From positions 1 to 52,923 of the IMG/VR virus record IMGVR_UViG_3300037852_000044: a stretch of DNA of 52,923 nucleotides; one strand, 5' to 3'. The notes under the pieces are model-generated. The model saw only the letters and a program-made list of their open reading frames with translations. It was not told the DNA's origin and did no database searches. A program made the position numbers and the translations under genes. Source of the stretch: a virus. This document shows positions 433 through 51,803 of the stretch, in pieces (position 1 is the first letter of the stretch; each line of letters starts with the position of its first letter).

Positions 433-505
433 GTTCGGTTCCTTCCGGGGGTGGGTTGGGGGTTATCGGGTTCGGGCCGACTCTAACGCGCCGGTCCGAC
501 AGTTC
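433..505 (-). promoter_or_regulatory. Promoter/dyad/leader module, copy 1
   Basis: Reading the minus strand: AACTGTCGG (half-site near 496-505), a TTAGAG -10-like box (481-486), the 17-bp dyad at 465-481 (right arm CCGAT instead of CCGAC), an ACCCACCCCC leader and a GGAAGGA ribosome site. It is one of seven aligned copies in the genome. Confidence 0.7.
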
Positions 506-507
506 TG

Positions 508-597
508 CTATCGAGCGCCGAACCATAGAGGGTCGAAGTAGCCGACCGTGGGCGCGACCGCGCCGAGGAAGAGCCAGCCACGCCATGTCAGCTTCAC
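508..597 (-). CDS. Putative 29-residue membrane peptide
   Basis: Starts with GTG overlapping the repaired stop of the upstream gene (GTGA). It holds one hydrophobic segment (WRGWLFLGAVAPTVGYF) after a short basic start. In the unrepaired sequence it is only the C-terminus of the longer ORF at 508-882. Acceptance depends on the frameshift at 693-697 being an artefact. Confidence 0.4.
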   Translation of the reverse strand: MKLTWRGWLFLGAVAPTVGYFDPLWFGAR

Positions 598-882
598 CCG
601 CGCGCCGCATCCGAGGCCGCGAGCGTCGAGATGACAGCGTCGGCGAGTTCGGTTAGCTCGATAGCGCCGGGCCGCTTGTGCTCGAAACGCGGCCCCCATG
701 CCCATGTCGGGTCGGAGCGGGGTCGGTGCCCATACGGTGTCTGTCGGGTAGCGGCTCGCTGAGCCAAACCATACGTTCACGGCATCGGGTTGGCTGTCCG
801 GATCATGCGGGCCAGGTAGGACGATCTCGGCGCGGTAACCGCGCTGCTCTAGCTCATCTGCGAGTTCTCGTGCGGTGGTCAC
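508..882 (-). CDS. Hypothetical protein, probably frameshifted at a C5 run
   Basis: Read as it stands this is 124 residues from a GTG start (880-882) with GGAGA eight bases upstream. The first ~60 residues look like a normal protein. After the run of five C at 693-697 the frame becomes Arg-rich and shadow-like. The next frame instead gives a natural sequence (…RFEHKRPGAIELTELADAV…) ending at TGA 594-596, where a GTGA overlap starts a 29-residue membrane peptide (508-597). Removing one C from the run restores this ~95-residue protein. A sequencing or assembly indel is the simplest cause. Function unknown. Confidence 0.6.
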   Translation of the reverse strand: MTTARELADELEQRGYRAEIVLPGPHDPDSQPDAVNVWFGSASRYPTDTVWAPTPLRPDMGMGAAFRAQAARRYRANRTRRRCHLDARGLGCGARVKLTWRGWLFLGAVAPTVGYFDPLWFGAR

Positions 883-935
883 GGGGTTCTCCAATCGTCG
901 GGGTGGGAATAGTCGGATCAAGTCCGAGTATACAC
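883..935 (-). promoter_or_regulatory. Promoter/dyad/leader module, copy 2
   Basis: Minus strand: TATACT box (927-932), dyad at 912-928 (GTCGG-N7-CCGAG on the plus strand), then CCCACCCCG and GGAGA ahead of the GTG start at 882. It sits directly after the late-operon terminator, so it probably starts a new transcription unit. Confidence 0.75.
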
Positions 936-947
936 GAGACGAAAGAA

Positions 948-978
948 CGGCCCGGCGCAAGTGAGTCGCGCCGGGCCG
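948..978 (-). terminator. Hairpin terminator after the lysis cassette
   Basis: Perfect 11-bp inverted repeat (CGGCCCGGCGC / GCGCCGGGCCG) with a 9-base loop, 43 bases past the stop of the cysteine peptidase gene. No clear U-tract, as is usual in high-GC genomes. It closes the late structural/lysis unit. Confidence 0.8.
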
Positions 979-1020
979 CTACTTCCCCGAGGTACCCACC
1001 CCTGAGTACCCGCCATGAGT

Positions 1021-1824
1021 CTAACTGACAGCGGTCAGCACCCACGCGTCGCTCGTGAACTTCGGCGACGCCACATACGCCGCCGGAATCCAGCAATAGC
1101 CGTTGTCTCCCCACTGCGGCGACCAGGAGTTCCTGATCCGGAAATAGAGCTGCCCGTTGATCATCGCGTAGCCGCAGACGCACATACAATGCGCGCCAAT
1201 GACCGCGTTGCTCGTCGTCGGCATCGGCACCGTATCGACGCCGAGCGATTCGGGGAAGCTGTCGAAAAGCACCATGCCGAAGACGACGAGCCGCCGCGTC
1301 GCGACCGCCTTCTGGAAGTTCAACGCCGACACCGGCACACGCTGATAGTTGATCAGCCGCGTCTTCGCCGCGTCGGTGTACGCCTGCGCCGGAGGCGCTG
1401 CCGCGAACTTGCTCACGTCATACGGCCACTCGGATTCTGGCGGTGCTCCTACTGCGGCGACGCTCTTGATGCCGTCGCGGATCTGCGCGCCGTGATCAAG
1501 CTTGACGGTGCCTTCGATGTAGCGGGCGTTGAAATAGATGAACAGACGCGACAGCATCTCGACACTGAGGTTCTGCGCGGTGAGATCCCACTCCATCGCC
1601 CCGGCGATGCCGTTCGCCACGCACGCGCCGAGCTGCAACTGGTCGTAGCATCCGGGCATCTTCGGATCGAGATCGAGCCGGACCGTCGGCGGCAGTTGCG
1701 TCTGTGTGATGCGCGGCGCGGCCCAAGTGTGATCGCGGATATCCGGCAGATCAGGCTTGCACCCTAGCCCGTAGCCGCAGTGTGTCGACGGCCGCACATG
1801 TAGCGCGTCGCGGACGCCGCTCAC
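1021..1824 (-). CDS. Papain-like (C1A) cysteine peptidase
   Basis: 267 residues. The papain signature is visible: Q62 six residues before C68 (QLQLGAC, the oxyanion-hole Gln and nucleophile), H212 in GAHCMCVCGY and N232 in RNSW followed by WGDNGY. These match the Cys-His-Asn triad and the NSW…WG pattern of the C1A family. No signal peptide or long propeptide is seen. The GTG start overlaps the endolysin stop by 4 bp, making it the last gene of the lysis cassette, and a terminator follows. It may help lysis by cutting cell-wall or surface proteins, or may mature a virion protein. Both roles are inference. Family assignment is firm. Confidence 0.85.
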   Translation of the reverse strand: MSGVRDALHVRPSTHCGYGLGCKPDLPDIRDHTWAAPRITQTQLPPTVRLDLDPKMPGCYDQLQLGACVANGIAGAMEWDLTAQNLSVEMLSRLFIYFNARYIEGTVKLDHGAQIRDGIKSVAAVGAPPESEWPYDVSKFAAAPPAQAYTDAAKTRLINYQRVPVSALNFQKAVATRRLVVFGMVLFDSFPESLGVDTVPMPTTSNAVIGAHCMCVCGYAMINGQLYFRIRNSWSPQWGDNGYCWIPAAYVASPKFTSDAWVLTAVS

Positions 1825-2774
1825 TTCGCCTCAAAGCCAGGGAGTTTCTGTAGGAACTCACGTGACACGGTTTGCGGGCCGGGCACGCCGAGCGCCTGAT
1901 ACGCAGCGACGTCAGTCGCAGTCGGCAGCCAATAGACGCCAGACTCGGTTTGCAGATGCAGCGCACCATTAGGCGAGCCGCCGTCGTGAACGATGACCAT
2001 GTGTTTGTCCTTTCGTAGCGGAACGGGTGGCGGCGGTGCCGGTGCGCTGAGGCCGTAGTCGGTCACGATCTGAGCGATCGGCCGCTGGATCACATTCATA
2101 TCGACCCAGCCGCCGAACGGCGGGCACGAGCGCGGATAGCCCGCCGGTGTCGGGAAGTTCAGCCCACCGTAATACTGATAGCCGTACCAGCCCGCCGGGA
2201 GCTGATCGGTGTAGTCCGCGAGGAACCGCTTCAACGTCGGCGGGTGCGACGGCCACAGCGCGGACCAGTCGCCTGAGTTCGCGTACCCGTCGAGCCGCGC
2301 GGCGGTCGCCGCATATGCGGCGAACGAACTGACCCAGTACCGCAACTCGGCCGAGTGATCACCTGGACCGGCGAACTGGGCACCGGACTCGACATCAAAG
2401 CGGAATGCGACCTTGCTGGGGCACGTCTTGCCGAGCACGGCGACGATGCGGTCATAGACCGGCGAGAGCTGCCCCGGCTGCACGACGAGATAGATCACCA
2501 GCAGTTTGATCTTCGGATCGGCATGTGCGCGTGCGAAGTTCGTCGCGAACTTATAGTCGAGCCGCCCGCCGCTGTCGCCCCGGATCGCGATCCACGAGTA
2601 GGGGTAGGACGTGTCATAGAGCGGCTGGAACTCCGCGATGTCTGCGCCGAAGCTGACACTCGGTGATGCTGCGAGCGCCGGGTGATCCCATTGCTCGGTC
2701 GGTTCGGTGAAGCCCGGCGGTCGCGGGTTCAGCCCGGCGCGGCCCGCGTGTGCGAGCGCGTTCGCAGCGGTCAC
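1821..2774 (-). CDS. Endolysin, GH25-type muramidase
   Basis: 317 residues from a GTG start that overlaps the holin stop (GTGA). Residues ~40-250 match the glycoside hydrolase 25 layout: an early Asp in ADIAEFQ (D45), FDVES with D127/E129, and a late WYGYQYYG…GWVDMNV segment. It should cleave the MurNAc-GlcNAc bond of peptidoglycan. The last ~60 residues, after a proline linker, form a small separate domain (MVIVHDGGSPNGALHLQ…), perhaps wall-binding. No signal peptide, consistent with holin-dependent release. A longer upstream reading is open but would lie wholly inside the holin gene. Confidence 0.85.
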   Translation of the reverse strand: MTAANALAHAGRAGLNPRPPGFTEPTEQWDHPALAASPSVSFGADIAEFQPLYDTSYPYSWIAIRGDSGGRLDYKFATNFARAHADPKIKLLVIYLVVQPGQLSPVYDRIVAVLGKTCPSKVAFRFDVESGAQFAGPGDHSAELRYWVSSFAAYAATAARLDGYANSGDWSALWPSHPPTLKRFLADYTDQLPAGWYGYQYYGGLNFPTPAGYPRSCPPFGGWVDMNVIQRPIAQIVTDYGLSAPAPPPPVPLRKDKHMVIVHDGGSPNGALHLQTESGVYWLPTATDVAAYQALGVPGPQTVSREFLQKLPGFEAK

Positions 2775-3163
2775 TTCGCGACGGTGGCGTGCGGCGGCGC
2801 ATGCTTCGCCGGAGCTGGCGGCGTAGGGCGAAGCGGAATCGAGTGCTGCGGCTTGCGTGTGATGCCACGCTGCGCGCGAAGCGTCGATGAGATCAGCGAG
2901 AGCAGCGCGGGCACTCCGGTAACGGCGGTCATGATCGCCGACTTCAACACCGAGACAGCGGCAAGCAGACCGGCGACGGCGGCAGTCTGCCAATACGACC
3001 AGTGCGCGAGCGCGGCGATGCTGAAGCCCGAGCCGCCGATGAGCTTCGTCGCGAACACGAGCCCGAACGCCGTCGCGGCACGATCAGCGGTCGAGATCAC
3101 CGCCGCATACTTCGTTCCGAGGAACTTCGAGAGCCAGAGTTTGATCTTCGCGATGATCGGCAT
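2771..3163 (-). CDS. Holin
   Basis: 130 residues, start chosen at the ATG at 3161-3163 because GGAGG lies five bases upstream. Hydrophobic segments lie near residues 20-45 and 50-70, preceded by an amphipathic basic N-terminus and followed by a Pro/Arg/Lys-rich tail. Position immediately before the endolysin and the membrane topology support a holin that permeabilises the cytoplasmic membrane. No specific holin family can be named from sequence alone. Confidence 0.7.
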   Translation of the reverse strand: MPIIAKIKLWLSKFLGTKYAAVISTADRAATAFGLVFATKLIGGSGFSIAALAHWSYWQTAAVAGLLAAVSVLKSAIMTAVTGVPALLSLISSTLRAQRGITRKPQHSIPLRPTPPAPAKHAPPHATVAK

Positions 3164-3227
3164 ATGGACCTCCGGGGAACGCGGCAAGCGGGTCAGAGGC
3201 AAGTATCGTCCCGAAAGTCCAGCCGGA

Positions 3228-3683
3228 TCAGTGGAAGCTCAAATGCGGCGAGATCGCAGCGATCGCCACGATGAGGGCGATCGCCAGCCCGGCGAGGCCC
3301 ATGAGCAGCGTCCGCGACGATTCACCGCGGGCCCCACCCGCCCGTTGACCGGCGATGAACTCGCTGAGCGGCTTGATCGCGAGCAGCAGTTTCTCTTCGA
3401 TCGCGTGCAGTTCATCTTTCGTCGCGTAGCCGCCGCGCTCACGCTCAATCTGGCTGCGCAGATCGTTGGCCTTCTCGTCCTTGTATTTCTGTGTCTCGCT
3501 TTGCAGCAGCAGCGCCCGCTCGTCGGCGGTCTCTTTGATCTTCAATGCCTTCTCGCGTTCGAGCGCCACTTCGCTGTAGCGGCGGTCGCGCTCTTCCAGA
3601 CGGCGGTCGCGCTCAGCTAACCATCGGAGGTCGGCACGGTGTAAGTCCGCGAGATGCTCACGAAGTGGCACGTCATCGACCAT
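3228..3683 (-). CDS. Coiled-coil, C-terminally anchored membrane protein
   Basis: 151 residues. The first ~100 are strongly charged and helical (ERDRRLEERDRRYSEV and similar), typical of a long coiled coil. Residues ~125-145 form one membrane segment (LLMGLAGLAIALIVAIAAI). Its place just ahead of the holin suggests a part in lysis timing, such as an antiholin or spanin-like accessory, but this is inference. Confidence 0.75.
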   Translation of the reverse strand: MVDDVPLREHLADLHRADLRWLAERDRRLEERDRRYSEVALEREKALKIKETADERALLLQSETQKYKDEKANDLRSQIERERGGYATKDELHAIEEKLLLAIKPLSEFIAGQRAGGARGESSRTLLMGLAGLAIALIVAIAAISPHLSFH

Positions 3684-3720
3684 TCCGACAGTATCCCGAG
3701 CAGGGTCTAAGCGGCCGCCG

Positions 3721-4077
3721 TCATTGCCCAGCGGCGAGCAGCATGCAAGGCGGCAGCCGCAGGCCTTGCAGACACGGTGGCGGCGAAACCGTGACCGTGA
3801 CGGTTCTCGTGCGCGTCACGGTAGGCCCGCGCACCGGCACGCCTGGCGCGGTTACCGTCACGCCGGGCGCTATCCGGATCGCCGTCTGCGTCGACCGAGC
3901 CGTCTGCACGACTGTCGACGTCGGACCCGGACTGATCACAGTGCTGCGCGTCGTCGTCGAGTGCTTCGGCCACAAGAGATATAAGGCGATGACGGAGCCG
4001 ACGAGAAGCATGATCGCCGCATAGAGCAGCCAATCAACACGGCGGCTCGATCGAGCGATCGTCTCAATTTTAGTCAT
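3721..4077 (-). CDS. Single-pass membrane protein with Thr/Val-rich tail
   Basis: 118 residues from the ATG at 4075-4077, which overlaps the upstream stop by 8 bp (ATGACTAA). One membrane helix near residues 15-35 (WLLYAAIMLLVGSVIALYLLW) is followed by a Thr/Ser/Val/Pro-rich region (TVTRTRTVTVTV) likely to lie outside the membrane. Part of a run of four membrane proteins ahead of the lysin. Confidence 0.65.
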   Translation of the reverse strand: MTKIETIARSSRRVDWLLYAAIMLLVGSVIALYLLWPKHSTTTRSTVISPGPTSTVVQTARSTQTAIRIAPGVTVTAPGVPVRGPTVTRTRTVTVTVSPPPCLQGLRLPPCMLLAAGQ

Positions 4078-4429
4078 CGGCCGCGTTGCCCTGCCCGATC
4101 GCTTCGCCGCGCATCCGCCACCCGCGATCGAACTCGCGCCGGAGATCTGCCGCGTACTGACGCGCGGCCTCTTCATCGTGTAGGCGCTCACTCTCGGCTT
4201 TGTCGATCGCGCGGTCGCGTTGCGCGCGGTGCATACCGGCCAGCACCGCCCCGAGGCCGAGCGCGGAGATCACGACCGCAATGATCGCCCAAAACGAACC
4301 TTGGGATACGGCTGCACCAGACGCCGACAAATACGCGGCGAGACCGGCCCGCCGGACTAGATGCCACGACAAGACAAAAGGGTGGATCACCGAAGTACCC
4401 GTCGGCTGCGAGACGGCGACGACGACCAC
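4070..4429 (-). CDS. Small membrane protein
   Basis: 119 residues if the GTG at 4427-4429 is used (AAGGGG upstream). A downstream start is possible. One clear membrane helix (FWAIIAVVISALGLGAVLAGM) is followed by a charged helical tail rich in Arg and Glu. It opens the membrane-protein/lysis group after the tail genes. Function unknown. Confidence 0.6.
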   Translation of the reverse strand: MVVVAVSQPTGTSVIHPFVLSWHLVRRAGLAAYLSASGAAVSQGSFWAIIAVVISALGLGAVLAGMHRAQRDRAIDKAESERLHDEEAARQYAADLRREFDRGWRMRGEAIGQGNAADD

Positions 4430-4499
4430 ATTCAGTCACCCCTTGGCGGATGAAACGGACCGGTCTGCCCCCATGATCGCTAAGCCTACGAAGATCAGA

Positions 4500-5453: not shown

Positions 5454-5463
5454 CAGTTCTCTC

Positions 5464-5934
5464 CTAGTCGGCGGTGAAGACGACGCCTTCGAGCGAGACG
5501 AAGACCGAGCCCGCGCCGACGCCGTTCGTAGCGCCGACATACACGCGGCCCGACGTGTCGATGATCAGGCTCGCGCACCCGTTAGTCGTCGCTCCGGCGT
5601 GAACGTTGAACGTGATCTGCGCAGACGGCCGCAGCCCGACCGGAAGCGTGAAGATCGGGTTGCCGACCCCGATGCTGCCGTTGTGCGCGAGCCCGTGGAA
5701 CCTGACCTGTATGCCGAAGACGTGATAGCTCACCGCGTTATACGGCGAGCCCCAGCTTGACCAGCCGCCGGTCAGCGTCGGCGCGACCCACGCGATCGTC
5801 CCTTTCAATGCGGTCAGCGCGTCGCTGATCGGCTTGACGACGTTGTTGAACCAATAGTCGTCATCACGGGTGACTGATGACGAGTCCGCGACCGTGCTCG
5901 ATGTGAACGGCAAACCGCTCGGCCAGTTACTCAT
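5464..5934 (-). CDS. Tail receptor-binding-type protein, single module
   Basis: 156 residues, ATG overlapping the upstream stop by 1 bp (TGATG). It holds one copy of the module seen twice in the next protein: WVAPTLTGGWSSWG, VSYHVFGIQVRFHG, FTLPVGLRPSAQ, then LEGVVFTAD at the end. Likely made by duplication with its neighbour. Probable virion tail-tip protein. Confidence 0.7.
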   Translation of the reverse strand: MSNWPSGLPFTSSTVADSSSVTRDDDYWFNNVVKPISDALTALKGTIAWVAPTLTGGWSSWGSPYNAVSYHVFGIQVRFHGLAHNGSIGVGNPIFTLPVGLRPSAQITFNVHAGATTNGCASLIIDTSGRVYVGATNGVGAGSVFVSLEGVVFTAD

Positions 5935-30080: not shown

Positions 30081-30427
30081 CGCGCGGGCACCCACGGCTC
30101 AACCTGGCTCGCTGCGTCGCACAGAGCGCAGAGATCCGGGTCGCTCGCAAGCAGTGTGGCGTCGCATCCGACGCATGTCTTGCCGATCGGCGCGGGGAAA
30201 ATCACGTAGCCCCAGATGCCGACGATCTGATCGCCGCCGCCGTCATAGACGTGAATCGCGCCGGTCGAGCCGGTCGCGCGAGCGAGATCATGTGCGGCTT
30301 CGATGACGTGCTCAGCTTCGCCCCGGTCCGGGTCGTTGTCGAAGACGATCGCGCCGATGGTCGGCTCGTCGCCTTCCCAGCGGAAGATGTGGCTCGCGCC
30401 GGGCTGCGTGTAGGTCACTCGGGTCAT
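30077..30427 (-). CDS. Zinc-ribbon protein under dyad promoter
   Basis: 116 residues, ATG at 30425-30427 with AAGGAGA seven bases upstream. Contains an ordered alpha/beta part (GAIVFDNDPDRGEAEHVIEAAH, IHVYDGGGDQIVG) and a C-terminal CVGC…CALC zinc ribbon. First gene after promoter copy 3, in the middle of the late region. Function unknown; could be regulatory. Confidence 0.7.
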   Translation of the reverse strand: MTRVTYTQPGASHIFRWEGDEPTIGAIVFDNDPDRGEAEHVIEAAHDLARATGSTGAIHVYDGGGDQIVGIWGYVIFPAPIGKTCVGCDATLLASDPDLCALCDAASQVEPWVPAR

Positions 30428-30480
30428 CTCGGTTCTCCTTCGGGGTGGGTTCGTTCTGTCGGTATGAGTCCGACAATAGC
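30428..30480 (-). promoter_or_regulatory. Promoter/dyad/leader module, copy 3
   Basis: TATTGT box (30473-30478), perfect dyad GTCGG-N7-CCGAC at 30458-30474, AACCCACCCCG leader and AAGGAGAAC. Same arrangement as copies before early genes, although this one lies inside the terminase-portal interval. Confidence 0.8.
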
Positions 30481-31921: not shown

Positions 31922-32161
31922 CTAGTCGCCCATGCCCTCCTGGCCCTTCGGCGCAGGCGAGAAGTCCACGTAGTATTCCTCGCCGACATCGAACTGCTCG
32001 ATCGCTAGTTCGTTGCGGATCGACATCTCGATCGTGCCCGCAGGTGTGGCCGACGCCCACTTCTTGTTGTCCTCGCCACGGGTCACCGCCGACAGCCGCA
32101 CCTTGCCGCCGCCGATCATCTTCGAGATCTCCGTGCAGTAGAACTTTGCCCTGACGCTCAT
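31922..32161 (-). CDS. 79-residue conserved phage protein
   Basis: ATG at 32159-32161 with GGAGG upstream. Sequence SVRAKFYCTEISKMIGGGKV, then LSAVTRGEDNKKWASATPAG and IEMSIRN…F-D-V-G-E-E-Y-Y-V-D-F-S-P-A. This pattern recurs in many phage hypothetical proteins near the terminase; its function is unknown. Confidence 0.7.
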   Translation of the reverse strand: MSVRAKFYCTEISKMIGGGKVRLSAVTRGEDNKKWASATPAGTIEMSIRNELAIEQFDVGEEYYVDFSPAPKGQEGMGD

Positions 32162-32240
32162 CGCAGCCTCCAGCTGCTCGAAGGGATGAAAACACCTGAG
32201 CGGCTGCGAGGGGACGAAGGTCCAACCCGACCGATGCTCA

Positions 32241-34697: not shown

Positions 34698-34945
34698 AGT
34701 TTCCCCGCCGCTTTCGCAGAGTCCCGCGCCGCCTGCCGGATCGTCGGCACATCACACGCGCGCGATAGGTGCAGCATCGCTTCGAGCAGATTGCAATAAA
34801 GCACGAGACCGTCAACGATCTCCGTGCCGCTCATCTCGATCAGATCGTGTGACGTCCATGTCCCGGCGTCGACCTCTTCTACTGCGTCGATCGCGTCGAG
34901 AGTCAGCCGGGCTCGTTCCTTCGGTTGGATCGATGCGCGAGTCAT
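34694..34945 (-). CDS. 83-residue helical protein
   Basis: ATG at 34943-34945, overlapping both neighbours by 4 bp. Mostly helical and acidic (LTLDAIDAVEEVDAGTWTSH, DGLVLYCNLLEAMLHLS). No family recognised. Longer readings would run through the HTH gene. Confidence 0.65.
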   Translation of the reverse strand: MTRASIQPKERARLTLDAIDAVEEVDAGTWTSHDLIEMSGTEIVDGLVLYCNLLEAMLHLSRACDVPTIRQAARDSAKAAGKL

Positions 34946-35178
34946 ACCCGTGCGCCTTGATCGCGGATCTCTTTCAGCACGCCGCAGATCCGCGCTTTGC
35001 TGTAGCCGAGATGATCGGCGATCTGCTGCGGACCCCAGCGGCGCTGGCATGTCAGCCGCCAGATCGTCACGCGCGCTTCGGACGGTGAGAGATCCGTCTG
35101 GCGGCCGTCCATCGCACGGCTGACCGCGACGCTGTCGAGGATGCCGTCTTCTCTGCGGCGTCCGCAGCATGCGGTCAT
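34942..35178 (-). CDS. HTH DNA-binding protein
   Basis: 78 residues. A helix-turn-helix spans ~36-75: SEARVTIWRLTCQRRWGPQQ then IADHLGYSKARICGVLKEI. N-terminus is Cys/Arg-rich. Sits next to the WhiB-like gene and overlaps it by 4 bp. A candidate phage regulator. Confidence 0.75.
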   Translation of the reverse strand: MTACCGRRREDGILDSVAVSRAMDGRQTDLSPSEARVTIWRLTCQRRWGPQQIADHLGYSKARICGVLKEIRDQGARV

Positions 35179-35537
35179 TGGGCGGCGGCCTTCCGGTGAA
35201 GATCAGGTGAGGGGATGGTAACCCCAGCGGCGGCCGCCCAGGAAGCTAGCTCCGGATCTTCGATCACCCGCGCCTTCTCCCAGTTCCGTCGCCGGAGTAT
35301 CTGACCGGCCCACACGCCGGACGCGCGAGCACCCAATTCGTGACGGCGAGACGAGCACGCTTCAAGCGCCGGACAGACCCGCTTGCAGATGTTCGCCGCC
35401 GCCCGCTTATCCCCTTCGCTGGAATCCTCATCCCACAACTCCGGCGCGTCCTGGCACGGGACATGATCGAACGGACGGCCAACCGCGTCATGCAGCGGCG
35501 CGAGCAGCGCCAGCCGGAGACTCACATCATCACGCAT
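35175..35537 (-). CDS. WhiB-family regulator
   Basis: 120 residues. Four cysteines at C28, C51, C55 and C61 (PCQ…ICKRVCPALEAC) match the WhiB iron-sulphur ligands. GVWAG (74-78) replaces the usual GVWGG turn, and a basic segment (LRRRNWEKAR) follows for DNA contact. WhiB proteins are restricted to actinobacteria and their phages and act with the primary sigma factor. Could redirect host or phage transcription. Confidence 0.85.
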   Translation of the reverse strand: MRDDVSLRLALLAPLHDAVGRPFDHVPCQDAPELWDEDSSEGDKRAAANICKRVCPALEACSSRRHELGARASGVWAGQILRRRNWEKARVIEDPELASWAAAAGVTIPSPDLHRKAAAQ

Positions 35538-36388: not shown

Positions 36389-36798
36389 TTGCGGCCGGAC
36401 GTCTTCGAGCCGATCTGCGTCACCTTGTCTGCCTGCTCACGCTCAGCGGCGGCGCGCTCTTCATCGAGACGTAACTGACCGGCGGCCTCATCCTTGCGGC
36501 GAGTGATCTCTTCCGCTGCCGCTTGCAGCAACTTCCCGGCGAGTTCACCGTCGCACTCGGTGATCGCCGCCGCGTCGACGGTATGCACGCGTGTCACGAT
36601 GCCGTCGCGGCTCCGCGCATGATTGATCTGGCTCACTTTGCCGCGCAGCACGTAGAAGACCTCTTCGTCGAGCTGCAACGCGACCGGATCGATCGTCAAC
36701 GCTTCGGATAGTCCGTCTCCGGCTTTCACGATCCGCACGGTCGCACGGTGAACTTGGTTGCGCTCGAATAGCGGGAGCTGATTCTTGTCGACGGTCAT
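36385..36798 (-). CDS. 137-residue protein, C-terminal coiled coil
   Basis: ATG at 36796-36798 with AGAGGA upstream and the C-rich leader (no dyad) before it. N-terminal beta part (LPLFERNQVHRATVRIVKAG, EEVFYVLRGKV), then a long charged helix (RRKDEAAGQLRLDEERAAAE). Function unknown. Confidence 0.65.
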   Translation of the reverse strand: MTVDKNQLPLFERNQVHRATVRIVKAGDGLSEALTIDPVALQLDEEVFYVLRGKVSQINHARSRDGIVTRVHTVDAAAITECDGELAGKLLQAAAEEITRRKDEAAGQLRLDEERAAAEREQADKVTQIGSKTSGRK

Positions 36799-37139
36799 GC
36801 GGGTTCCTCTCGGGTGGGTTGCAGCCGGTCTAGTGGCCGGTCGCCTTTGTAGCCCCATCGGCAGTTCGTGCATCGCACGCCGATGACTTCGGGCTGCGGA
36901 ACATCGAGGACGGCGGCGCGGTCATAGTCGTCAGCGTCGATCTCCGGGTCTGACGCGCCGACATGCCATACGCCGTGCAGATCGCGTTCGATCACTGTGC
37001 GTTCGATGATGATGAGACTGTTCGGCGACGCGCAGTACGGGCAGCCGAGCAGCACCGGCTCGGCTGGTTGGGCCTTGTGCTCGACGAGCGCCGTCGGGCT
37101 GTCATCGCCGGGCACCGCGACATCAGCGGGGCGGCTCAC
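36795..37139 (-). CDS. Zinc-ribbon protein
   Basis: 114 residues. CPYC near residue 33 and CTNC near residue 89 form a four-Cys zinc site. The middle contains an acidic loop (ASDPEIDADDYDRA). GTG start overlaps the upstream stop. Typical phage nucleic-acid or accessory protein; function unknown. Confidence 0.65.
   Translation of the reverse strand: MSRPADVAVPGDDSPTALVEHKAQPAEPVLLGCPYCASPNSLIIIERTVIERDLHGVWHVGASDPEIDADDYDRAAVLDVPQPEVIGVRCTNCRWGYKGDRPLDRLQPTREEPA
36799..36822 (-). promoter_or_regulatory. C-rich leader without dyad
   Basis: Minus strand AACCCACCCGAGAGGAACCC just before the ATG. Same leader/ribosome-site block as the seven dyad promoters but with no TATAGT or GTCGG dyad, and it lies inside the coding end of the upstream gene. 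Suggests the leader itself has value for translation. Confidence 0.5.
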
Positions 37140-41023: not shown

Positions 41024-41289
41024 GGGATCTCGTGGCCGAGGGGGGCGACCGCCTGCGCGCACAGCACCGGCACCAGTCCGACCGGCAGCAGCTCGATCGG
41101 TTCGGTCGAGCGGAGCTGCCGCATCACGATCTCGCCCTGCTCCGGGCGGGGGACCTCGGCCATGATTTCGATGACGGTGAAGATGATGTTGCGGTTTTCG
41201 TCTCGGATCGGGACCGGGTAGCCGGTGACTGTGACGCCGGGCGGCGGGCGGTAGGCGGTGATTGCGGCGCTGAGTTCGGTTCGGTTCAT
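41020..41289 (-). CDS. 89-residue protein under dyad promoter
   Basis: ATG at 41287-41289 with AAAGGA upstream and promoter copy 4 before it. Two beta-alpha parts (TGYPVPIRDENRNIIFTVIE; RQLRSTEPIELLPVGLVPVL). Overlaps the HNH/RHH gene by 4 bp, heading that unit. No family recognised. Confidence 0.65.
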   Translation of the reverse strand: MNRTELSAAITAYRPPPGVTVTGYPVPIRDENRNIIFTVIEIMAEVPRPEQGEIVMRQLRSTEPIELLPVGLVPVLCAQAVAPLGHEIP

Positions 41290-41342
41290 TTTCGGGTTCC
41301 TTTGGGGTGGGCGGTCGCCTTGGGGCGTGTCAGACAATAGCG
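41290..41342 (-). promoter_or_regulatory. Promoter/dyad/leader module, copy 4 (degenerate dyad)
   Basis: TATTGT box at 41334-41339, weak dyad (CTTGG-N7-CAGAC on the plus strand) and CCCACCCCAAAGGA leader. The most diverged of the seven copies; lies directly after the hydrolase stop. Confidence 0.55.
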
Positions 41343-42855: not shown

Positions 42856-42857
42856 GA

Positions 42858-45230: not shown

Positions 45231-45262
45231 CTTGGGTCTCCTAGTTCTGGGGTGTCTTCGGA
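45231..45262 (-). promoter_or_regulatory. C-rich leader, distant copy
   Basis: Minus strand GACACCCCAGAACTAGGAGA, resembling the ACCCACCCCG…AGGAGA leader of the dyad promoters but with no dyad or -10 box. Lies in the gap before the 128-residue gene. Confidence 0.4.
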
Positions 45263-45270
45263 GTAGTGGA

Positions 45271-45507
45271 TTATTCGCCGCGACGCAGCCGGGCGAGTTC
45301 CGCTTCGGCTGCCGCGATCTGCGCTTCGCGTTTCACTGCCGCTTTCAGATCGTCGAGCGCGGTCTGCGCTTTGCGGCCGAGCGACTGCACACGGACGCGG
45401 GTCGAGCACGCCGCCGCTGTCAGCAGCTCGTGGACTTCCGAGCCGAACTCGGGCTCGGCGCGTTCGGTGCCAGGGGTAGTGATGGGGTCGTCGTCGAGTG
45501 TGGGCAT
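45271..45507 (-). CDS. 78-residue helical protein under dyad promoter
   Basis: ATG at 45505-45507 with GAGAGGA upstream and a full dyad promoter before it. Acidic start, then a long helix (VHELLTAAACSTRVRVQSLG; RKAQTALDDLKAAVKREAQI). Such helix-rich early proteins often bind host factors. No family recognised. Confidence 0.65.
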   Translation of the reverse strand: MPTLDDDPITTPGTERAEPEFGSEVHELLTAAACSTRVRVQSLGRKAQTALDDLKAAVKREAQIAAAEAELARLRRGE

Positions 45508-45555
45508 GATTCATCCTCTCGGGGTTGGGTTGTCGGGTTCGGTCCGACTATAGCG
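45508..45555 (-). promoter_or_regulatory. Promoter/dyad/leader module, copy 5
   Basis: TATAGT box (45547-45552), perfect dyad GTCGG-N7-CCGAC at 45532-45548, AACCCAACCCCG leader, GAGAGGA. It overlaps the last codons of the methyltransferase gene, so promoter and stop are packed together. Confidence 0.8.
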
Positions 45556-45558
45556 GGT

Positions 45559-46860
45559 TCAGCGGGTCGTGAAGCTGACCTTTTCGTCCGTGTCGGCATG
45601 GACGGGCGTGATGCCCGTGAACTGCTCAAAACGGCGGCAGATCACGTCGGCATAGAGCGGGTCGATCTCGACGAGCCTGGTGGCTCGGCCGATCGTGTGG
45701 GCGGCTATCAGTGTTGACCCAGAGCCCGCGAACGGGTCATAAACGAGGCCGCCGGGCCGCACCGAGTTACCGATCATCGGTGCGACCAGTTCGACAGGCT
45801 TCATCGTCGGATGCTCTTCGGACCGGGCGGGCCGCGCGACTTCGAAGACGCTGGTCTGGGCATTGTCGCCGAACCAGCGACGCCCGCCTCTACCGCGCCG
45901 CCCGGTGCCTTTAGCCGCGTTGCCGGTGAAGCCGTAGAGGATCGGCTCGTGCTGATAGTGGTAATCCGAACGACCAAGTACAAAGCGATCCTTCATCCAC
46001 ATGAGCGACTGCCGCCAGTCCCAGCCCGCGTCGATGATGATCTGCTGGAACACCGCGCATTGCGGCCCGGACGGGTGCGCCACATAGAACGGCGCACCCG
46101 CCCAGAGCACCGCATCCGCTACCGCGAACGCGGCCCGGACGGTCGCCTCATAGGACGCGCCGTCGTTCTGAACGCGGAGACCATCAGTTCTACGGCGTGC
46201 GGCGCGAGCGGCATCGGCGTCTACGAAGTCGTTGTAATCGACGCCGTAGGGCGGGTCGGTCCACATGCAATCGCAGCGGTCGCCGTCAAGCATCAGCGCG
46301 ACCGCCGCGCCGTCGGTAGCGTCGCCGACGAGCAGTCGCGAATCGCCAAGCAGCCATATGTCGCCCGTCTTGGAGATCGCGCGCTTCGGTATCGCAGGGA
46401 CGTCATTCGTTCCGGGCTGCCCTAGCTCGGAACGGCGGATCGAGTTCAGTAGATGATCTATATCTGTCGGGTCGAAGCCGGTCGCCGACAGCAGCGGTTG
46501 GTCAAGGGATTCCAGTAGAGTCACGAGTTGCTGCTCATCCCACGTCGCTAGTTCGGCCGTCCGATTATCGGCAATCGCGAACGCCCGCGCCTCCGCTGCG
46601 GTGCCGGGGAAGATCGTCACCCACAGGTCGTTCCAGCCGAGGTTCGTCGCGGCTTCGAGGGTGCCGTTGCCCGCGACGACGGTCATGTTCCGTGAGACGA
46701 CGATCGGCTTGCGTTGCCCGAATTTCGCGAGGCTCGCTTCGATCGCGGCCAGGTTCGGAGGCCCGTGCATCCGGGCGTTCTTCGGGTCCGGCTTCAAGCG
46801 GCTCAGCGGCACGCGCTCGACGGGGAGGTCGGCTGCGGCCGTGGGCTTGGCTCGGGTCAC
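45559..46860 (-). CDS. ParB-domain / DNA methyltransferase fusion
   Basis: 433 residues from GTG 46858-46860 (GTGA overlap). Residues ~15-120 are ParB/Srx-like (VPLSRLKPDPKNAR, PIVVSRNMTVVAGNGTLEAA, AIADNRTAEL). Residues ~160-415 are a DNA amino-methyltransferase: DPPY catalytic motif (202-205) before the SAM-binding FAGSGST (377-383), the beta-class order, acting on adenine N6 or cytosine N4. No restriction enzyme nearby, so it is an orphan methylase, likely protecting phage DNA or marking it for regulation. The ParB part may aid DNA loading. Confidence 0.88.
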   Translation of the reverse strand: MTRAKPTAAADLPVERVPLSRLKPDPKNARMHGPPNLAAIEASLAKFGQRKPIVVSRNMTVVAGNGTLEAATNLGWNDLWVTIFPGTAAEARAFAIADNRTAELATWDEQQLVTLLESLDQPLLSATGFDPTDIDHLLNSIRRSELGQPGTNDVPAIPKRAISKTGDIWLLGDSRLLVGDATDGAAVALMLDGDRCDCMWTDPPYGVDYNDFVDADAARAARRRTDGLRVQNDGASYEATVRAAFAVADAVLWAGAPFYVAHPSGPQCAVFQQIIIDAGWDWRQSLMWMKDRFVLGRSDYHYQHEPILYGFTGNAAKGTGRRGRGGRRWFGDNAQTSVFEVARPARSEEHPTMKPVELVAPMIGNSVRPGGLVYDPFAGSGSTLIAAHTIGRATRLVEIDPLYADVICRRFEQFTGITPVHADTDEKVSFTTR

Positions 46861-47096
46861 GCTGAGCCCTGACGAGGGCGCTGGGCCGCCGCGCCGCCCA
46901 CTTTCGAGAGGTTGCCCGGCTTCGTGCGGCGTGTGCGGAGCCACCGGCTGATCGTCGACTCCCACCACCACGGCGAACGGCCCAAATAACCGTCCGGCTT
47001 CGGCGCGCGGCCATCACGCTTGTACGTATCGAGGGTGTCCGGCGTGATACCGGCCATCTCAGCGACGGCTCTGATGTCTAGCTGCTTGCCTGGCAT
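46857..47096 (-). CDS. MerR/AlpA-type HTH protein
   Basis: 79 residues, ATG at 47094-47096 with AAGGAG upstream. Helix-turn-helix: LDIRAVAEMAGITPDTLDTY then KRDGRAPKPDGYLGRSPWW and WESTISRWL, the pattern of AlpA/excisionase-like DNA-binding proteins. It heads the methylase unit, directly after a terminator. It could regulate this region or the dyad promoters, although no integrase was seen to pair with an excisionase. Confidence 0.8.
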   Translation of the reverse strand: MPGKQLDIRAVAEMAGITPDTLDTYKRDGRAPKPDGYLGRSPWWWESTISRWLRTRRTKPGNLSKVGGAAAQRPRQGSA

Positions 47097-47120
47097 GCGG
47101 TGCTCCTTAGTCGAGGGTGA

Positions 47121-47158
47121 CCGGAGCCCGCCCACGATGCGGTGAGGGCGGGCTCCGG
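47121..47158 (-). terminator. Hairpin terminator after DUF932 gene
   Basis: Perfect 13-bp inverted repeat (CCGGAGCCCGCCC / GGGCGGGCTCCGG) with a 12-base loop between the DUF932 stop (47175) and the HTH start. Works on either strand by symmetry. No U-tract. Confidence 0.8.
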
Positions 47159-47174
47159 CGCTCTTACGGACGGC

Positions 47175-48356
47175 TCATGCTGCGGCGAATGCGTACTCCA
47201 TCGCGGTCAGAGCCTTAGCTTCCATGTCGAACGCGTCGTCGGCGTTCTCGATCTGCTGGCAGTAGGACGTGACCGCTTGCAGCACGCCTCCGGCGGTGAC
47301 TTGCCCGCCACGGATGAAGTGATCAAGAACGCCCTTGGTCTCGGCTTCGGTGAAGGTGAGGCGCTTCGCGACGATCTTGATCGTCGCCTCCGGGTCGGCG
47401 AGCGGCTTGCTCGCCTTCTCGCTCATCTGCTCGATGCAGCGTCGGACGTAGTCGACGTCGAGGAACGTCGCGACCGCGTCGCGTGCCTTGCTCGTGATCA
47501 GTTCGAGGTTCTTCTGCTGCGTGTCGGCTGACCAGCGGATGACTCCGGTGTCGAGCTTGCTGCCCAAGTGGATCGCGCGCAGCGCGTCCTTCGTCATCTG
47601 CATGCCGTTCGAGCAGACTTGCACGACGAGACGCGGCGTGATCGAGAATGCGCCGTTGCCGGTCTCGGAGTTGCTCACGACGAATCCGGCGAACACCTTC
47701 GGCAACTCGTCGCCCGACAGGCCGGAGTATGGCGAGCGGTAGCCGCGCAGCAGATCCGGCGCGAGCGCCGCGACCGACGGTGCGCTGATCGTGACGTACA
47801 TGCGTCGCTCGGTGAGGTTGCAGGAGTCGATGCTGACTTCGACGCCGGACTTGCGGATGCCGTCGAGTGCGGCTGTGAGCGCGTCGAAGTTGTCCGCGAC
47901 GCCGCCATAAGAATCGGACAGCAGCGCGCGGGCGATGCCTTCGCCGCCGTCGTCGCCCCGGAACGTGCGGACAAGGAACGAACGAGCGTCGGGCTCGGCG
48001 ACGACGTCATCGAACGGCTCAGAGAGTCGCTTGACGGTGTGCCCGTGAATCCAGCCGTTGACGTTCGCGTCGTAGAGATCCGGGCGCTCGGTCCGCATGC
48101 GCCGCACATAAGCAAGTGGGATGCCGAGCTTCTCCGCGACACCCTCATCGAACACCGCCGTCGGACGGAAGATGCCCGGCTCGGTCGTCACGCCGTAATC
48201 GTCCATCGTGACCGTCGCGTCTTTGACATGCAGCAGACCGCCGCGAGAACGCAGCGTTGTCGCCGGGGCAACGATGTCGAGCTTCGCGGCTTGCTGCTGC
48301 TGTAGCAGCTCCGCGAGGTCAGCGAGTGTCGCGTTGCGGGCTTGGGTGGTGATCAT
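47175..48356 (-). CDS. DUF932-like protein
   Basis: 393 residues, ATG at 48354-48356 with GGAAGGA upstream. Matches the DUF932/phage-plasmid-like family: VFDEGVAEKLGIPLAYVRRM, NVNGWIHGHTVKRLS, FLVRTFRGDDG, RALLSDSYGGVADNF, GFVVSNSETGNGAFSITPRL and CSNGMQMTKDAL. Homologues are widespread in phages and plasmids without known biochemical function. Has its own dyad promoter and terminator, so it is a single-gene unit and may be expressed early and strongly. Confidence 0.85.
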   Translation of the reverse strand: MITTQARNATLADLAELLQQQQAAKLDIVAPATTLRSRGGLLHVKDATVTMDDYGVTTEPGIFRPTAVFDEGVAEKLGIPLAYVRRMRTERPDLYDANVNGWIHGHTVKRLSEPFDDVVAEPDARSFLVRTFRGDDGGEGIARALLSDSYGGVADNFDALTAALDGIRKSGVEVSIDSCNLTERRMYVTISAPSVAALAPDLLRGYRSPYSGLSGDELPKVFAGFVVSNSETGNGAFSITPRLVVQVCSNGMQMTKDALRAIHLGSKLDTGVIRWSADTQQKNLELITSKARDAVATFLDVDYVRRCIEQMSEKASKPLADPEATIKIVAKRLTFTEAETKGVLDHFIRGGQVTAGGVLQAVTSYCQQIENADDAFDMEAKALTAMEYAFAAA

Positions 48357-48437
48357 CTTGTGGTTCCTTCCGGGGTGGGTACGTCCCGACCGTTTGTCGG
48401 ATCGAGTCCGACTATACAGCAGCGGGCCGACAGTTCT
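48357..48437 (-). promoter_or_regulatory. Promoter/dyad/leader module, copy 6
   Basis: AGAACTGTCGG half-site (48427-48438), TATAGT box (48411-48416), perfect dyad GTCGG-N7-CCGAC at 48396-48412, an extra GTCGGGACG, then ACCCACCCCGGAAGGA. The fullest copy of the module. Confidence 0.85.
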
Positions 48438-48463
48438 AGCCCGTCGCCGGTATTCTCGGCACT

Positions 48464-48515
48464 GCCGGGCCGGTGCAGCACTCAACTAGGCCAGCCAACC
48501 TTGCACCGGCCCGGC
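48464..48515 (-). terminator. Long-stem hairpin terminator
   Basis: Perfect 14-bp inverted repeat (GCCGGGCCGGTGCA / TGCACCGGCCCGGC) with a 24-base loop, starting 4 bases after the stop of the 63-residue gene. It separates that unit from the DUF932 promoter. Confidence 0.75.
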
Positions 48516-48518
48516 GTT

Positions 48519-48710
48519 TCACGGCCGTAACAGCGGCTCGTCCACGACGCTCACCGGCACAAGATCAAGCACAACAGGCGCGGCTGGCGGCGGCTCAGCC
48601 CGACGTCGGCGGAATAGATCGAGCAGAATCCGCGCGTCCAGGGCTGAGCCGGTGCCGTCGGATGCACGGCGGATCGCCGCGCGTGCCTGATCGGCGGTGT
48701 AGGCGATCAC
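48519..48710 (-). CDS. 63-residue small protein
   Basis: GTG overlapping the upstream stop. Helical first half (AYTADQARAAIRRASDGTGS; LDARILLDLFRRRR), Pro/Val-rich second half. Last gene of its unit before a hairpin. Function unknown. Confidence 0.6.
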   Translation of the reverse strand: MIAYTADQARAAIRRASDGTGSALDARILLDLFRRRRAEPPPAAPVVLDLVPVSVVDEPLLRP

Positions 48711-49075
48711 CCGGCGCGCTGAGCTTTGCCGAGACGCGAGTTCGGTGAAGCGAGCGCGACGCCGGACGGCCGCGCAGGCTTGCGCCTTCGCATGACCGGG
48801 TCGATCTTGCTCGCGCGTCGCCCCATGCTGTAGGACCGCGCCTCCTGCCGGACATGAACGCCGTCATCATGACCGAACGGCAGCCGACACTTCCGCGCCG
48901 CGCAAAGCTTGACGCCGTCGCCATGCCGGAGCCGGAACTTCTCCGCTTGCCGGACCGCCCGCCGGGCGACGCGTTCGAGCGTCTCGTTGTTAGCTTCAGC
49001 GACCGGAGCAGTCTCGACCGGCAATTCGCCGACCGGCAATTCGGCCTCGACCGCGCGCTTTCGTCGTAACCGCAT
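48707..49075 (-). CDS. 122-residue basic protein
   Basis: ATG with GAGG upstream. Basic ends surround a Cys/His segment (LCAARKCRLPFGHDDGVHVR) that could be a small zinc finger; LxRVARRAVRQAEKFRLRHG precedes it. Probably nucleic-acid-binding. No family recognised. Confidence 0.65.
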   Translation of the reverse strand: MRLRRKRAVEAELPVGELPVETAPVAEANNETLERVARRAVRQAEKFRLRHGDGVKLCAARKCRLPFGHDDGVHVRQEARSYSMGRRASKIDPVMRRRKPARPSGVALASPNSRLGKAQRAG

Positions 49076-49096
49076 CAGATGCCTCTCGTGTCGGGA

Positions 49097-49729
49097 TCAA
49101 GCGGACAGTAGCAGCGCCCGGCGTCTACGGAACAGACCGCGCAGATCATCCGGCATCGGCACCGAGAGCGCCCGGTGCTCGGCGCACGCCGGACACGCGC
49201 GGCCGCGATCAATCGACTCGGCCGGGTGGAACGGACACGTCGGACGTCGCTCCGGTCGCAGCTCGCGCCAGAACCGTAGGAATGCCGCGACGTGCCGCAC
49301 GCGTCCCCATATCCGGCCGGACGCTTCGCGGACGAGCCGTGCGATGCCGATCGTGCGTACCCAGCGGGTGAGGTCAGCGATGACGTCCGGCCGCAGACGT
49401 CCCCAGCCGACGCGGATACCGGCGGTGAGCATCGCGTCACGCAGCGCGGTCACTTCCGGCGTCCAGGGCACTGTGCTCTTCGATTGAGAACCTGAGCTTA
49501 GAGGTTGTCCGGTAGGCACGATCCGGTCCGGCAGCCGGTGCCCAGCAGCGTCGCAGCGGCGCTCGCGGCGGATCGTCCCGGCGGTTTCAAGCTCGCCGAG
49601 CGCGCGGGCGACGGTCCTACATGACACGCCGAGCACGTCGGCGAGCGAGTCCTGGCTGGCGGTGATCGGCCGGTCGATGAGCGCGGCGAGCCGGATCAGG
49701 GTGGACGTTGTCGGGTCGGTCTGAGACAC
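49097..49729 (-). CDS. Winged-helix protein, candidate replication initiator
   Basis: 210 residues from GTG 49727-49729 (AAAGG upstream; a TTG 16 codons earlier is less likely). N-terminal winged helix: ASQDSLADVLGVSCRTVARA then LGELETAGTIRRERR. The C-terminal part has TRWVRTIGIARLVREASGRI and CPFHP…CPAC, a zinc ribbon. This two-part layout resembles actinophage replication-initiation or HTH proteins. With no polymerase, helicase or primase found, it is the best candidate to start replication with host enzymes. It could instead be a transcription regulator. Confidence 0.7.
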   Translation of the reverse strand: MSQTDPTTSTLIRLAALIDRPITASQDSLADVLGVSCRTVARALGELETAGTIRRERRCDAAGHRLPDRIVPTGQPLSSGSQSKSTVPWTPEVTALRDAMLTAGIRVGWGRLRPDVIADLTRWVRTIGIARLVREASGRIWGRVRHVAAFLRFWRELRPERRPTCPFHPAESIDRGRACPACAEHRALSVPMPDDLRGLFRRRRALLLSA

Positions 49730-49773
49730 TTGTGTCGCCTTTCGAGCTTGGTCGCGAGTAGGGCATTCGTCAG

Positions 49774-49805
49774 ACAAAGGCCGGGGATGGAAACCCGGCC
49801 TTTGT
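49774..49805 (-). terminator. Hairpin between zinc protein and winged-helix genes
   Basis: Near-perfect stem ACAAAGGCCGGG / CCCGGCCTTTGT with a short loop, in the ~95-base gap between genes. On the minus strand the stem is followed by TCTGAC, with T residues inside the stem's second arm. Probable terminator. Confidence 0.7.
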
Positions 49806-49826
49806 CATGTCCGGAAGATCCGGACC

Positions 49827-50348
49827 CTAGTCTTTCGTGTCGCGCGGAGCAAGATCGGAGACCGCGCAGACGTGCGGCGCATAGCCGCCGCCATGAGATT
49901 CGCCGGTCTCTTCAGCGACGACGTCGGTGATGCGCCGCCGCAGCGGCGCGCCGCGTTCATCGAAGCGCCATAGGCCGCCCCGCACGATGCCGGGGTCGAG
50001 GGTGAGCACGCCGGAGCCGCGCTGTATGCGGAACACCGGCTCGCCGCATGTCTGGCATCGCGCCGGGGCGAGATCGTCGGCCCAGCGCGGCGCTGGGGGC
50101 TCTAGCGGCCGTTCTCGCGGCACTGCCGGTGGTGCGGCTGCGGCTTCTCGGGGCGGGGCGTATTCCCATACTTCGGCGCGGGTGTGCTTATCGAGCGGAT
50201 GCGGCACGCTGCGGCCGGTCCGCCGGTAGTCAAAGACGCTGCCCATCGCGGCGGCCGCGTCGCGGCACCGCTCGATCTCGGCGAGGAAGTATGACCAGCG
50301 GTCGCGCGGGCCGCCTTCGCAGATCGCGACTGGCTGCGACCAGCCCAT
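49827..50348 (-). CDS. 173-residue zinc-site protein
   Basis: ATG overlapping the upstream stop by 1 bp (TGATG). N-terminal ~70 residues with WSYFLAEIERCRDAAAAMGS; Pro-rich linker; then CQTCGEP, RFDERGAPLRR and HVCAVSD, giving a Cys/His zinc site. Follows RecT and may assist recombination or replication; unproven. Confidence 0.65.
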   Translation of the reverse strand: MGWSQPVAICEGGPRDRWSYFLAEIERCRDAAAAMGSVFDYRRTGRSVPHPLDKHTRAEVWEYAPPREAAAAPPAVPRERPLEPPAPRWADDLAPARCQTCGEPVFRIQRGSGVLTLDPGIVRGGLWRFDERGAPLRRRITDVVAEETGESHGGGYAPHVCAVSDLAPRDTKD

Positions 50349-50503
50349 CAGCGTCGCCGAGGCGCTGGCTTGCGCTCAACGATCGCTTTGCGCTCGGCGC
50401 GCATCTCACTCACACACTTCACGCAGCGGCCGTCTTTGTCGAGCTTGTCCGCTTCGTCGATCGGGTGCCCTTGTGAGCACACGTCGCCTAGCCGCAGCGT
50501 CAC
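50348..50503 (-). CDS. 51-residue zinc-ribbon miniprotein
   Basis: GTG overlapping the RecT stop (GTGA), stop TGA at 50348. C-x2-GHP near residue 9 and CVKC near residue 27 are ligand pairs of a short zinc ribbon, followed by a basic tail (RKPAPRRR). Likely nucleic-acid-binding. Confidence 0.65.
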   Translation of the reverse strand: MTLRLGDVCSQGHPIDEADKLDKDGRCVKCVSEMRAERKAIVERKPAPRRR

Positions 50504-51738
50504 AGCAGCGTCTCGCCGTCATCAGCGGCGAGCTGTGACTCGGTTAGAGCGTCGCGCTCGGCTTCCTCCTGCTCGGCGAGGCGGGCGAAGTGCGCCGTGA
50601 GGTCGAACGCGACGACCGCGCGGAGCTGCTCCGTCGAGAGGTAGGCGAGACCGGCGTTCCGGCCGGGCGTGTCGTTGGCGATCGAGTCCGGCCAGATCCG
50701 GCCGCCTGCTACCTCGACGGCAGCGTCGAACGCGCCGTCGCCGTGCTTGTCGATCGCGGCCTTGATAAGCCCCTTGCGGAGCGCGGTGGAAGGGTACGGT
50801 CCCGGCGCTGTCAGCGGCGTGTCGTTGCCCTCAGTGACCGTGACCGGCTCTTCGACGATCGTGATCGTCTCACCGTTGCCGACCGTCGTGCCGGGAAGAT
50901 CAGCGCGGGTGATCGTGACCGACTGCCGCTCATCATCGCCGTCAGCGCCGAGAGCGTCGAGTGACATGTCGGTGCGGACCGCTTCATCAGATGCGAACGC
51001 CAGCGCGAGGTCGGTCGTCTTCGGTAGGAACTTGAACAGTTGCCGGACCGCGCTCTTCCGCGACATGGCGTCTCGGTTCGTGTTCCACGGCGAGTAAACC
51101 GAGTTCGACGACTTGCTGGATTTTTTGATCAGCTCGACGTCGTCTTCGCCCATGACGTGCCACGCGACGCCGCCGTTCGTGAAGCGTGCGATCGCGTAAT
51201 GCAGGATCGGCTCGCCGCGCTCGTCGTGCTTAAAGATCCGCTCATGCTCTAGCTTCTCATCGAGCCCGTCGACGATGCGGAACTTCTCGTTGCTGTAGAT
51301 CGTCTGCGCCTTGATCGAGAGCACTTTGCCGGTCCGCTCGACGAGTTCGATCATCCCTTGATAGCCGAGAATCCACTGAGCTTCGACGGTCCCCGCGCGC
51401 CGGTTCTCATACGGCAACACCCAACCGTGACCGAGCGCCGGGACGTTCGGCCGCAGACCGAGCTGCGCGGCGGTCATCAGCGCGCCGAGGAACGAGGCCT
51501 GTGTCGCGTCGGCGAGCGCCGGGATATTCCGCATCGCGGTCGCGGCGTCACGGATGAGCTGCCGCGCTTCGAGGCCGCGCGGCATCGCGAGCGCGAACTG
51601 TTCCTCGAATTGCTTCATCACCGCGACTCGGCCGTCGATGCGCTGCGCGAGAGTGAGTGATGTTCCGGGCTCGCCGGGTGGCGCTTCGTCGAGGCCGACG
51701 GCGGCGCGGGCACGATTGGCTGGGGTTGCTTCGGTCAT
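50500..51738 (-). CDS. recT: RecT-family single-strand annealing protein
   Basis: 412 residues, ATG with AGGAG upstream. RecT core at ~40-270: ATQASFLGALMTAAQLGLRP, YQGMIELVERTGKVLSIKAQ, VYSPWNTNRDAMSRKSAVRQ. The C-terminus is acidic and disordered. It anneals complementary single strands made by the exonuclease encoded just upstream. Its own dyad promoter at 51739-51803 may raise its level relative to the exonuclease. Confidence 0.9.
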   Translation of the reverse strand: MTEATPANRARAAVGLDEAPPGEPGTSLTLAQRIDGRVAVMKQFEEQFALAMPRGLEARQLIRDAATAMRNIPALADATQASFLGALMTAAQLGLRPNVPALGHGWVLPYENRRAGTVEAQWILGYQGMIELVERTGKVLSIKAQTIYSNEKFRIVDGLDEKLEHERIFKHDERGEPILHYAIARFTNGGVAWHVMGEDDVELIKKSSKSSNSVYSPWNTNRDAMSRKSAVRQLFKFLPKTTDLALAFASDEAVRTDMSLDALGADGDDERQSVTITRADLPGTTVGNGETITIVEEPVTVTEGNDTPLTAPGPYPSTALRKGLIKAAIDKHGDGAFDAAVEVAGGRIWPDSIANDTPGRNAGLAYLSTEQLRAVVAFDLTAHFARLAEQEEAERDALTESQLAADDGETLL

Positions 51739-51803
51739 CGGAGTTCTCCTACTCGGGGTGGGTTATCGGGTCGGTGCCGACTATACTCGGCAGGTCCGAC
51801 AGT
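51739..51803 (-). promoter_or_regulatory. Promoter/dyad/leader module, copy 7
   Basis: TAACTGTCGG (51796-51804, overlapping the exonuclease stop), TATAGT box (51780-51785), dyad at 51765-51781 (ATCGG-N7-CCGAC on the plus strand), AACCCACCCCGAGTAGGAG. Confidence 0.8.

Follow-up and report, generated by a model that had tools for sequence, protein, structure and literature searches.

Mycobacteriophages of cluster K carry start-associated sequences (SAS/ESAS), about half of them accompanied by inverted repeats, and the consensus of these repeats differs between subclusters (PMC3203893, Pope et al. 2011). A study of Adephagia published in 2024 recognised SigA-like promoters in the ESAS; its regulator is not known, the immunity repressor being an unlikely candidate (PMC11373665). 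In cluster A, the stoperators recognised by repressors of the L5/Bxb1 type are asymmetric sites of 13-14 bp, present in 20-30 copies per genome and lying mostly outside promoters (PMC6550527). Here we examine a set of promoter modules in a phage whose layout recalls both systems.

The stretch of viral DNA analysed (hereafter the window) is a record of 52,923 bases, the first and last 132 of which form a direct repeat (1-132 and 52792-52923, with one mismatch at position 125), which suggests that the record is probably a complete or terminally redundant phage genome of 52.8 kb. Throughout the window, every gene with a family match lies on the minus strand, and these matches include RecE-like and RecT-like recombination proteins, a terminase, a ParB-like/methyltransferase protein and a WhiB-like protein, while the portal protein resembles those of actinobacterial phages. 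The phage is probably of the actinobacterial type and without a close named relative; a nucleotide search of named phages with the 30-52.9 kb part of the window returned zero matches, and no integrase was found in the phage. Homologues of the product of the 48356 gene led to two relatives, G001, which spans 56.4 kb and has end repeats of 77 bp, and G002, a piece of 35 kb. Both are syntenic with the window, with protein identities mostly of 40-70% and about 70% for the portal. A portal scan gave nothing with a single sequence and, with an alignment as the query, a third relative, G029, closer to G001 (portal 85%, RecT 71%). A terminase scan across bacterial genomes found no relative, and hence no host is assigned for either lineage. 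The evidence is drawn from sequence only, the relatives are few and fall into two operator types, and the chance levels of the scans were set with Markov models of the genomes under study.

The initial annotation had described seven promoter-operator-leader modules on the minus strand, and all seven are present at the coordinates and in the order it gave (Table 1). In every copy, the dyad overlaps the 3' part of the -10 box in the same register, beginning at position 5 of the hexamer, which serves as the anchor, and the start codon follows 39-54 nt further on. Other details were more uniform in that description than in the DNA. The dyad GTCGG-N7-CCGAC is perfect in three of the seven copies, modules 1, 2 and 7 have one arm mismatch each, and the 41289 copy (GTCTG...CCAAG) is hardly a dyad and is kept by its -10, spacing and leader only, which counts against the single-operator reading. 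The -10 forms TATAGT, TATTGT and TATACT hold for six copies, module 1 departing from them without a change of register, and the supposedly constant AGGAGA box varies between AGGAGA, AAGGAA and GAGGAT. The upstream element reported for three copies is found exactly in three of the seven, its GTC always standing 15 nt away from the -10 and the half-site 19 bp from the dyad. One of two genes proposed to have the leader alone is clear (start 36798, its product about 45% identical in relatives); the second was not found.

Table 1. Putative modules, related elements and candidate regulator genes in the window.
Feature	Span (strand)	Upstream half-site	-10 hexamer	Dyad	Leader	Start codon or remark
Module 1	432-504 (-)	AACTGTCGG 504-496	TAGAGT 485-480	GTCGGCCCGAACCCGAT 481-465	CCAACCCACCCCCGGAAGG	432
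Module 2	882-932 (-)		TATACT 932-927	CTCGGACTTGATCCGAC 928-912	CCCACCCCG	GTG 882
Module 3	30427-30478 (-)		TATTGT 30478-30473	perfect, 30474-30458	ACCCACCCCGAAGGAGA	30427
Module 4, degenerate	41289-41339 (-)		TATTGT 41339-41334	GTCTG half-site only	CCCACCCCAAAGGA	41289
Module 5	45507-45552 (-)		TATAGT 45552-45547	perfect, 45548-45532	CCAACCCCGAGAGGA	45507
Module 6, best	48356-48435 (-)	AACTGTCGG 48435-48427	TATAGT 48416-48411	perfect, 48412-48396	ACCCACCCCGGAAGGA	48356
Module 7	51738-51804 (-)	AACTGTCGG 51804-51796	TATAGT 51785-51780	GTCGGCACCGACCCGAT 51781-51765	ACCCACCCCGAGTAGGAGA	51738 (RecT)
Weak eighth candidate	49075-49110 (-)		TACTGT	fused GTCCGCTTGATCCCGAC (GTCCG-N7-CCGAC), 49110-49090	no C-rich leader	49075
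Leader only	36798-36820 (-)				ACCCACCCGAGAGGAACCCGC	36798; without promoter or dyad
Candidate regulator	46857-47096 (-)					short MerR/Xis-like winged HTH; in unit headed by module 6
Candidate regulator	34942-35178 (-)					78-aa HTH protein; 47% identical in G001/G002
Candidate co-regulator	35175-35537 (-)					WhiB-like, four Cys; overlaps HTH gene

The modules lie mainly in the non-structural arm, the sole exception named being module 3, between the terminase and portal genes. RecT is preceded by module 7. If the ends join, gene 432-97 shares an ATGA overlap with the start of RecE over the terminal repeat, and modules 2 and 1 directly precede RecE. The gene behind module 6 had been labelled DUF932; it has no Pfam or NCBIfam match and belongs only to phrog_1362, a family without an assigned function, and the HNH label of another target gene was likewise not confirmed. 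Module 6 also carries an extra GTCGG past the dyad (window 48400-48380), seen in this copy only, which could form a hairpin in the leader.

A matrix built from the seven sites was scored by leave-one-out, with Markov-3 shuffled genomes as the control. The top seven matches in the genome are exactly the seven input sites; six copies score 18.8-33.6 bits when left out, and the 41289 copy 1.3 bits. The shuffles reach a mean maximum of 11.8 bits (sd 2.4) and give 0.095 matches above 15 bits per genome against six strong sites, so that chance does not match the observed number. The combination of CCCACCC, Shine-Dalgarno box and start codon has seven occurrences on the minus strand, and shuffling this strand 60 times produced none, whereas a dyad with one mismatch allowed is by itself unspecific (17 seen, 8.4 expected). 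The full module, unlike the dyad alone, is specific, and the occurrence of its six strong sites is not due to chance. The weak eighth candidate, at 13.9 bits, lies near the shuffle maxima. An exact GTCGG module scanned over all viral contigs gave 34 single matches, one per contig piece and not above chance, and was discarded as evidence. When all loci collected were searched de novo for a -10 joined to a dyad, the outcome was convincing only in the clade of this phage, and a gapped-dyad scan of 17 phage contigs returned GTCTG as the top dyad in G001, G002, G010 and G011. In the same scan, a distant phage (G020, IMGVR_UViG_3300032893_000057; contig of L058, loci L188-L190) has ten CTACC-N2-GGTAG palindromes against 0.05 expected, several of them close upstream of gene starts and one then followed by the leader ACCCACCCGAAAGGACC; this is possibly another operator regulon.

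The related phages, to which the initial annotation had proposed extending the scan, carry the same module with another dyad sequence: GTCGGA-N5-TCCGAC in the window phage is replaced by GTCTGG-N5-CCAGAC, as in the operator stretches GTCGGACTCGATCCGAC (window phage) and GTCTTACTTGACCAGAC (G001). Both G001 and G002 have the fusion of TATNGT with the GTCTGG dyad at five promoters each, and the operator of G029 is of the G001 type. At the phrog_1362 gene, the promoter is the same in G001 and G002, with the operator changed: AACTGTCGG/GTCGG...CCGAC here corresponds to AACTGTCTG/GTCT...AGAC in the relatives, with 15 nt to the -10 in both, and the order in G001/G002 is AACTGTCTGG...TATAGTCTTACTTGACCAGAC...CCACCCAAGGGAGA...ATG. 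The CCCACCC leader, common to the window phage, G001, G002 and G029, is unaffected by this switch. Across the promoters compared, the putative operator is constant within a lineage and is switched at all promoters together between lineages. The half-site and the dyad change in step, as would follow if a DNA-binding regulator, probably encoded by the phage, had diverged in specificity, and every one of these phages probably produces a regulator of its own that acts on many genes simultaneously. The earlier proposal of one regulator over many promoters is thus strongly supported by the concerted operator change in the relatives, while the word repressor had been drawn from the position of the site only.

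Two further arrangements were observed in G001 and G002. A divergent operator pair (G001 54286-54404, G002 32095-32214) places one operator in front of a minus-strand gene and the other in front of an HNH endonuclease gene on the plus strand that has the same leader. An element resembling CTTGACC/CTTGCC lies 7-8 nt upstream of the -10 in place of AACTGTCTG at G001 54286, 46270 and 38223 and at G002 32095, 24643 and 15577; at about 8 nt from the -10 of these six promoters, CTTGACC was rejected as a -35 on spacing, being too near.

On the alignments, the predicted module is made of three separable elements, namely the upstream half-site, the -10 with its dyad, and the leader. The RecE promoters of G001 and G002 have the upstream element and lack the dyad, which identifies the former as a separate element, and the RecE-side promoter of G029 has a similar AACTGTCCGG, with the -10 register off by one. 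The C-rich leader stands alone before RecT of G001, as it does before 36798 in the window.

Taken together, we think it likely that the window holds six to seven copies of one promoter, repressed by a phage-encoded dimer on the dyad over the -10 and start. The host RNA polymerase with its main sigma factor would recognise the -10 box (TANNNT), and a homodimeric phage protein would bind the 17-bp dyad at about -8 to +9, over the end of the -10 and the transcript start, and may also contact the single half-site in the three copies that have it. Once bound, it would stop open-complex formation and shut the target units together, most likely shaping the timing of the lytic cycle, while the C-rich leader and Shine-Dalgarno box would act post-transcriptionally as a separate start-associated element. 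The position from -8 to +9, the two-fold symmetry and the concerted change all argue for a dimeric DNA-binding regulator, for which a block of initiation is the simplest reading. With no integrase found, there is no proven lysogenic state for such a repressor to maintain. No -35 is conserved in 18 aligned promoters, and no sigma-70 pair was found in 33-53 kb; hence, the -10 may have been misread, or the regulator may act as an activator.

Among the regulators proposed initially, the 46857, 34942 and WhiB-like proteins occur together with the system in all three phages (the window phage, G001 and G002), and 49097, which has no homologue in G001 or G002 and resembles replication-initiation proteins, is an unlikely regulator. 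As predicted regulators, the three conserved proteins are not distinguishable, two operator types being too few for covariation. The 46857 winged HTH occupies the same position in G001 and G002 (45-48% identity) and, because the most complete module heads the unit that contains it in each of the three phages, is the most economical candidate; its structure model is unusable (mean pLDDT 53). A GC-rich hairpin (GAGCCCGCCC...GGGCGGGCTC, window 47096-47175) separates its gene from the 47175-48356 gene and has a comparable counterpart in G001 and G002, where, as here, it perhaps lowers expression of the HTH gene. Close behind ranks the pair of HTH and WhiB-like genes at 34942-35537. The 34942 protein has no match in named phages, and its model (pLDDT 77, fair) has no significant match in the PDB, with DeoR, LsrR, sigma region 4, KorA and ArdK at E about 0.6-3; the WhiB-like protein is about 42% identical in relatives and distantly related to TM4 WhiB. 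The mycobacteriophage MerR-type protein Alexphander gp94 reportedly discriminates little between sequences when it binds DNA (PMC11242194), which calls for caution over proteins of this kind.

The missing -35 could also mean an activated, middle-promoter regulon, in which a phage protein at the half-site, about -31 to -23, replaces the -35 and sets the targets on once the regulator is made. The 18 aligned promoters fit this, as do the upstream AACTGTCKG, fixed at 15 nt from the -10 and present at RecE promoters without a dyad, and the conserved WhiB-like protein, whose family is known to act together with the main sigma factor. We nevertheless regard activation as unlikely, since four of the seven copies lack the upstream element, whereas the dyad over the start region is well formed in all but one, and a protein sitting there would be expected to block. 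In phage T4, MotA middle promoters similarly pair a -10 box with an element near -30 that is specific to the phage and stands in for the -35, and the window dyad differs in additionally covering the start region. It is a still more doubtful proposal that this is a new type of regulon from an unisolated lineage, independent of cluster K, in which the half-site near -28 activates, the dyad at +1 represses, a WhiB-like partner acts at the sigma factor and the operator code changes in concert at every promoter from one lineage to the other.

A host protein as the regulator, with the two operator types reflecting two hosts, seems very improbable; neither lineage has a relative among the bacterial genomes scanned and the phage regulators are candidates only, but several clean copies per phage with a lineage-specific operator better fit a phage-encoded factor, and we know of no host site of the GTCGG-dyad form. 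We give hardly any credence to the dyad acting as RNA, in a hairpin or an attenuator at the leader's 5' end, since no transcript should include its left arm, which falls within the -10 box, making the dyad a DNA site, and since the directly oriented half-site changes with the arms, which a hairpin leaves unexplained, even though covariation of the arms between lineages is also expected of a hairpin and the 48356 copy can form CCGAC-AAAC-GGTCGG.

With repression at a shared dyad as the preferred reading, the window resembles cluster K in its many copies before non-structural genes, in a start-associated element with a Shine-Dalgarno box that occurs with and without an upstream promoter and inverted repeat, and in an operator that diverges (GTCGG here, GTCTG in G001, G002 and G029) while the CCCACCC leader is kept. 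However, the 13-bp SAS (GGGATAGGAGCCC, up to 2 mismatches) has 0 matches before start codons in the window, and one window module lies, unlike those of cluster K, between the terminase and portal genes. The paired 17-bp imperfect inverted repeats of cluster K, two full palindromes about 29-37 bp apart, surround a -35/-10 promoter, whereas the window has one 17-bp dyad, with a half-site at 19 bp in three of seven copies and no TTGACA -35. Without the SAS, the paired repeats and the -35, the window system is not a member of the cluster K SAS/ESAS family, although its logic is alike. In TM4, our own scan found a -10 (TGTAGT/TGTACT) fused to TGTTGA-N4-TCAACA in the same way as in the window; comparison of the TM4 right arm with the window proteins revealed none convincingly in common beyond one WhiB-like protein, and no sequence homology was found. 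With the cluster A stoperators, the window shares the plan of one probable regulator, many sites and a consensus that diverges with the phage, and it differs in that its site is a dyad on the -10; an approximate stoperator consensus gave 4 matches in the window against 1.84 expected, without enrichment. In summary, the cluster K elements have lacked an assigned regulator since 2011, and a second lineage with the same logic, no sequence homology, two operator versions and a few conserved regulator candidates makes the question testable by swapping regulator and operator, while the module itself gives a way to delimit regulons in actinophages without an isolate.
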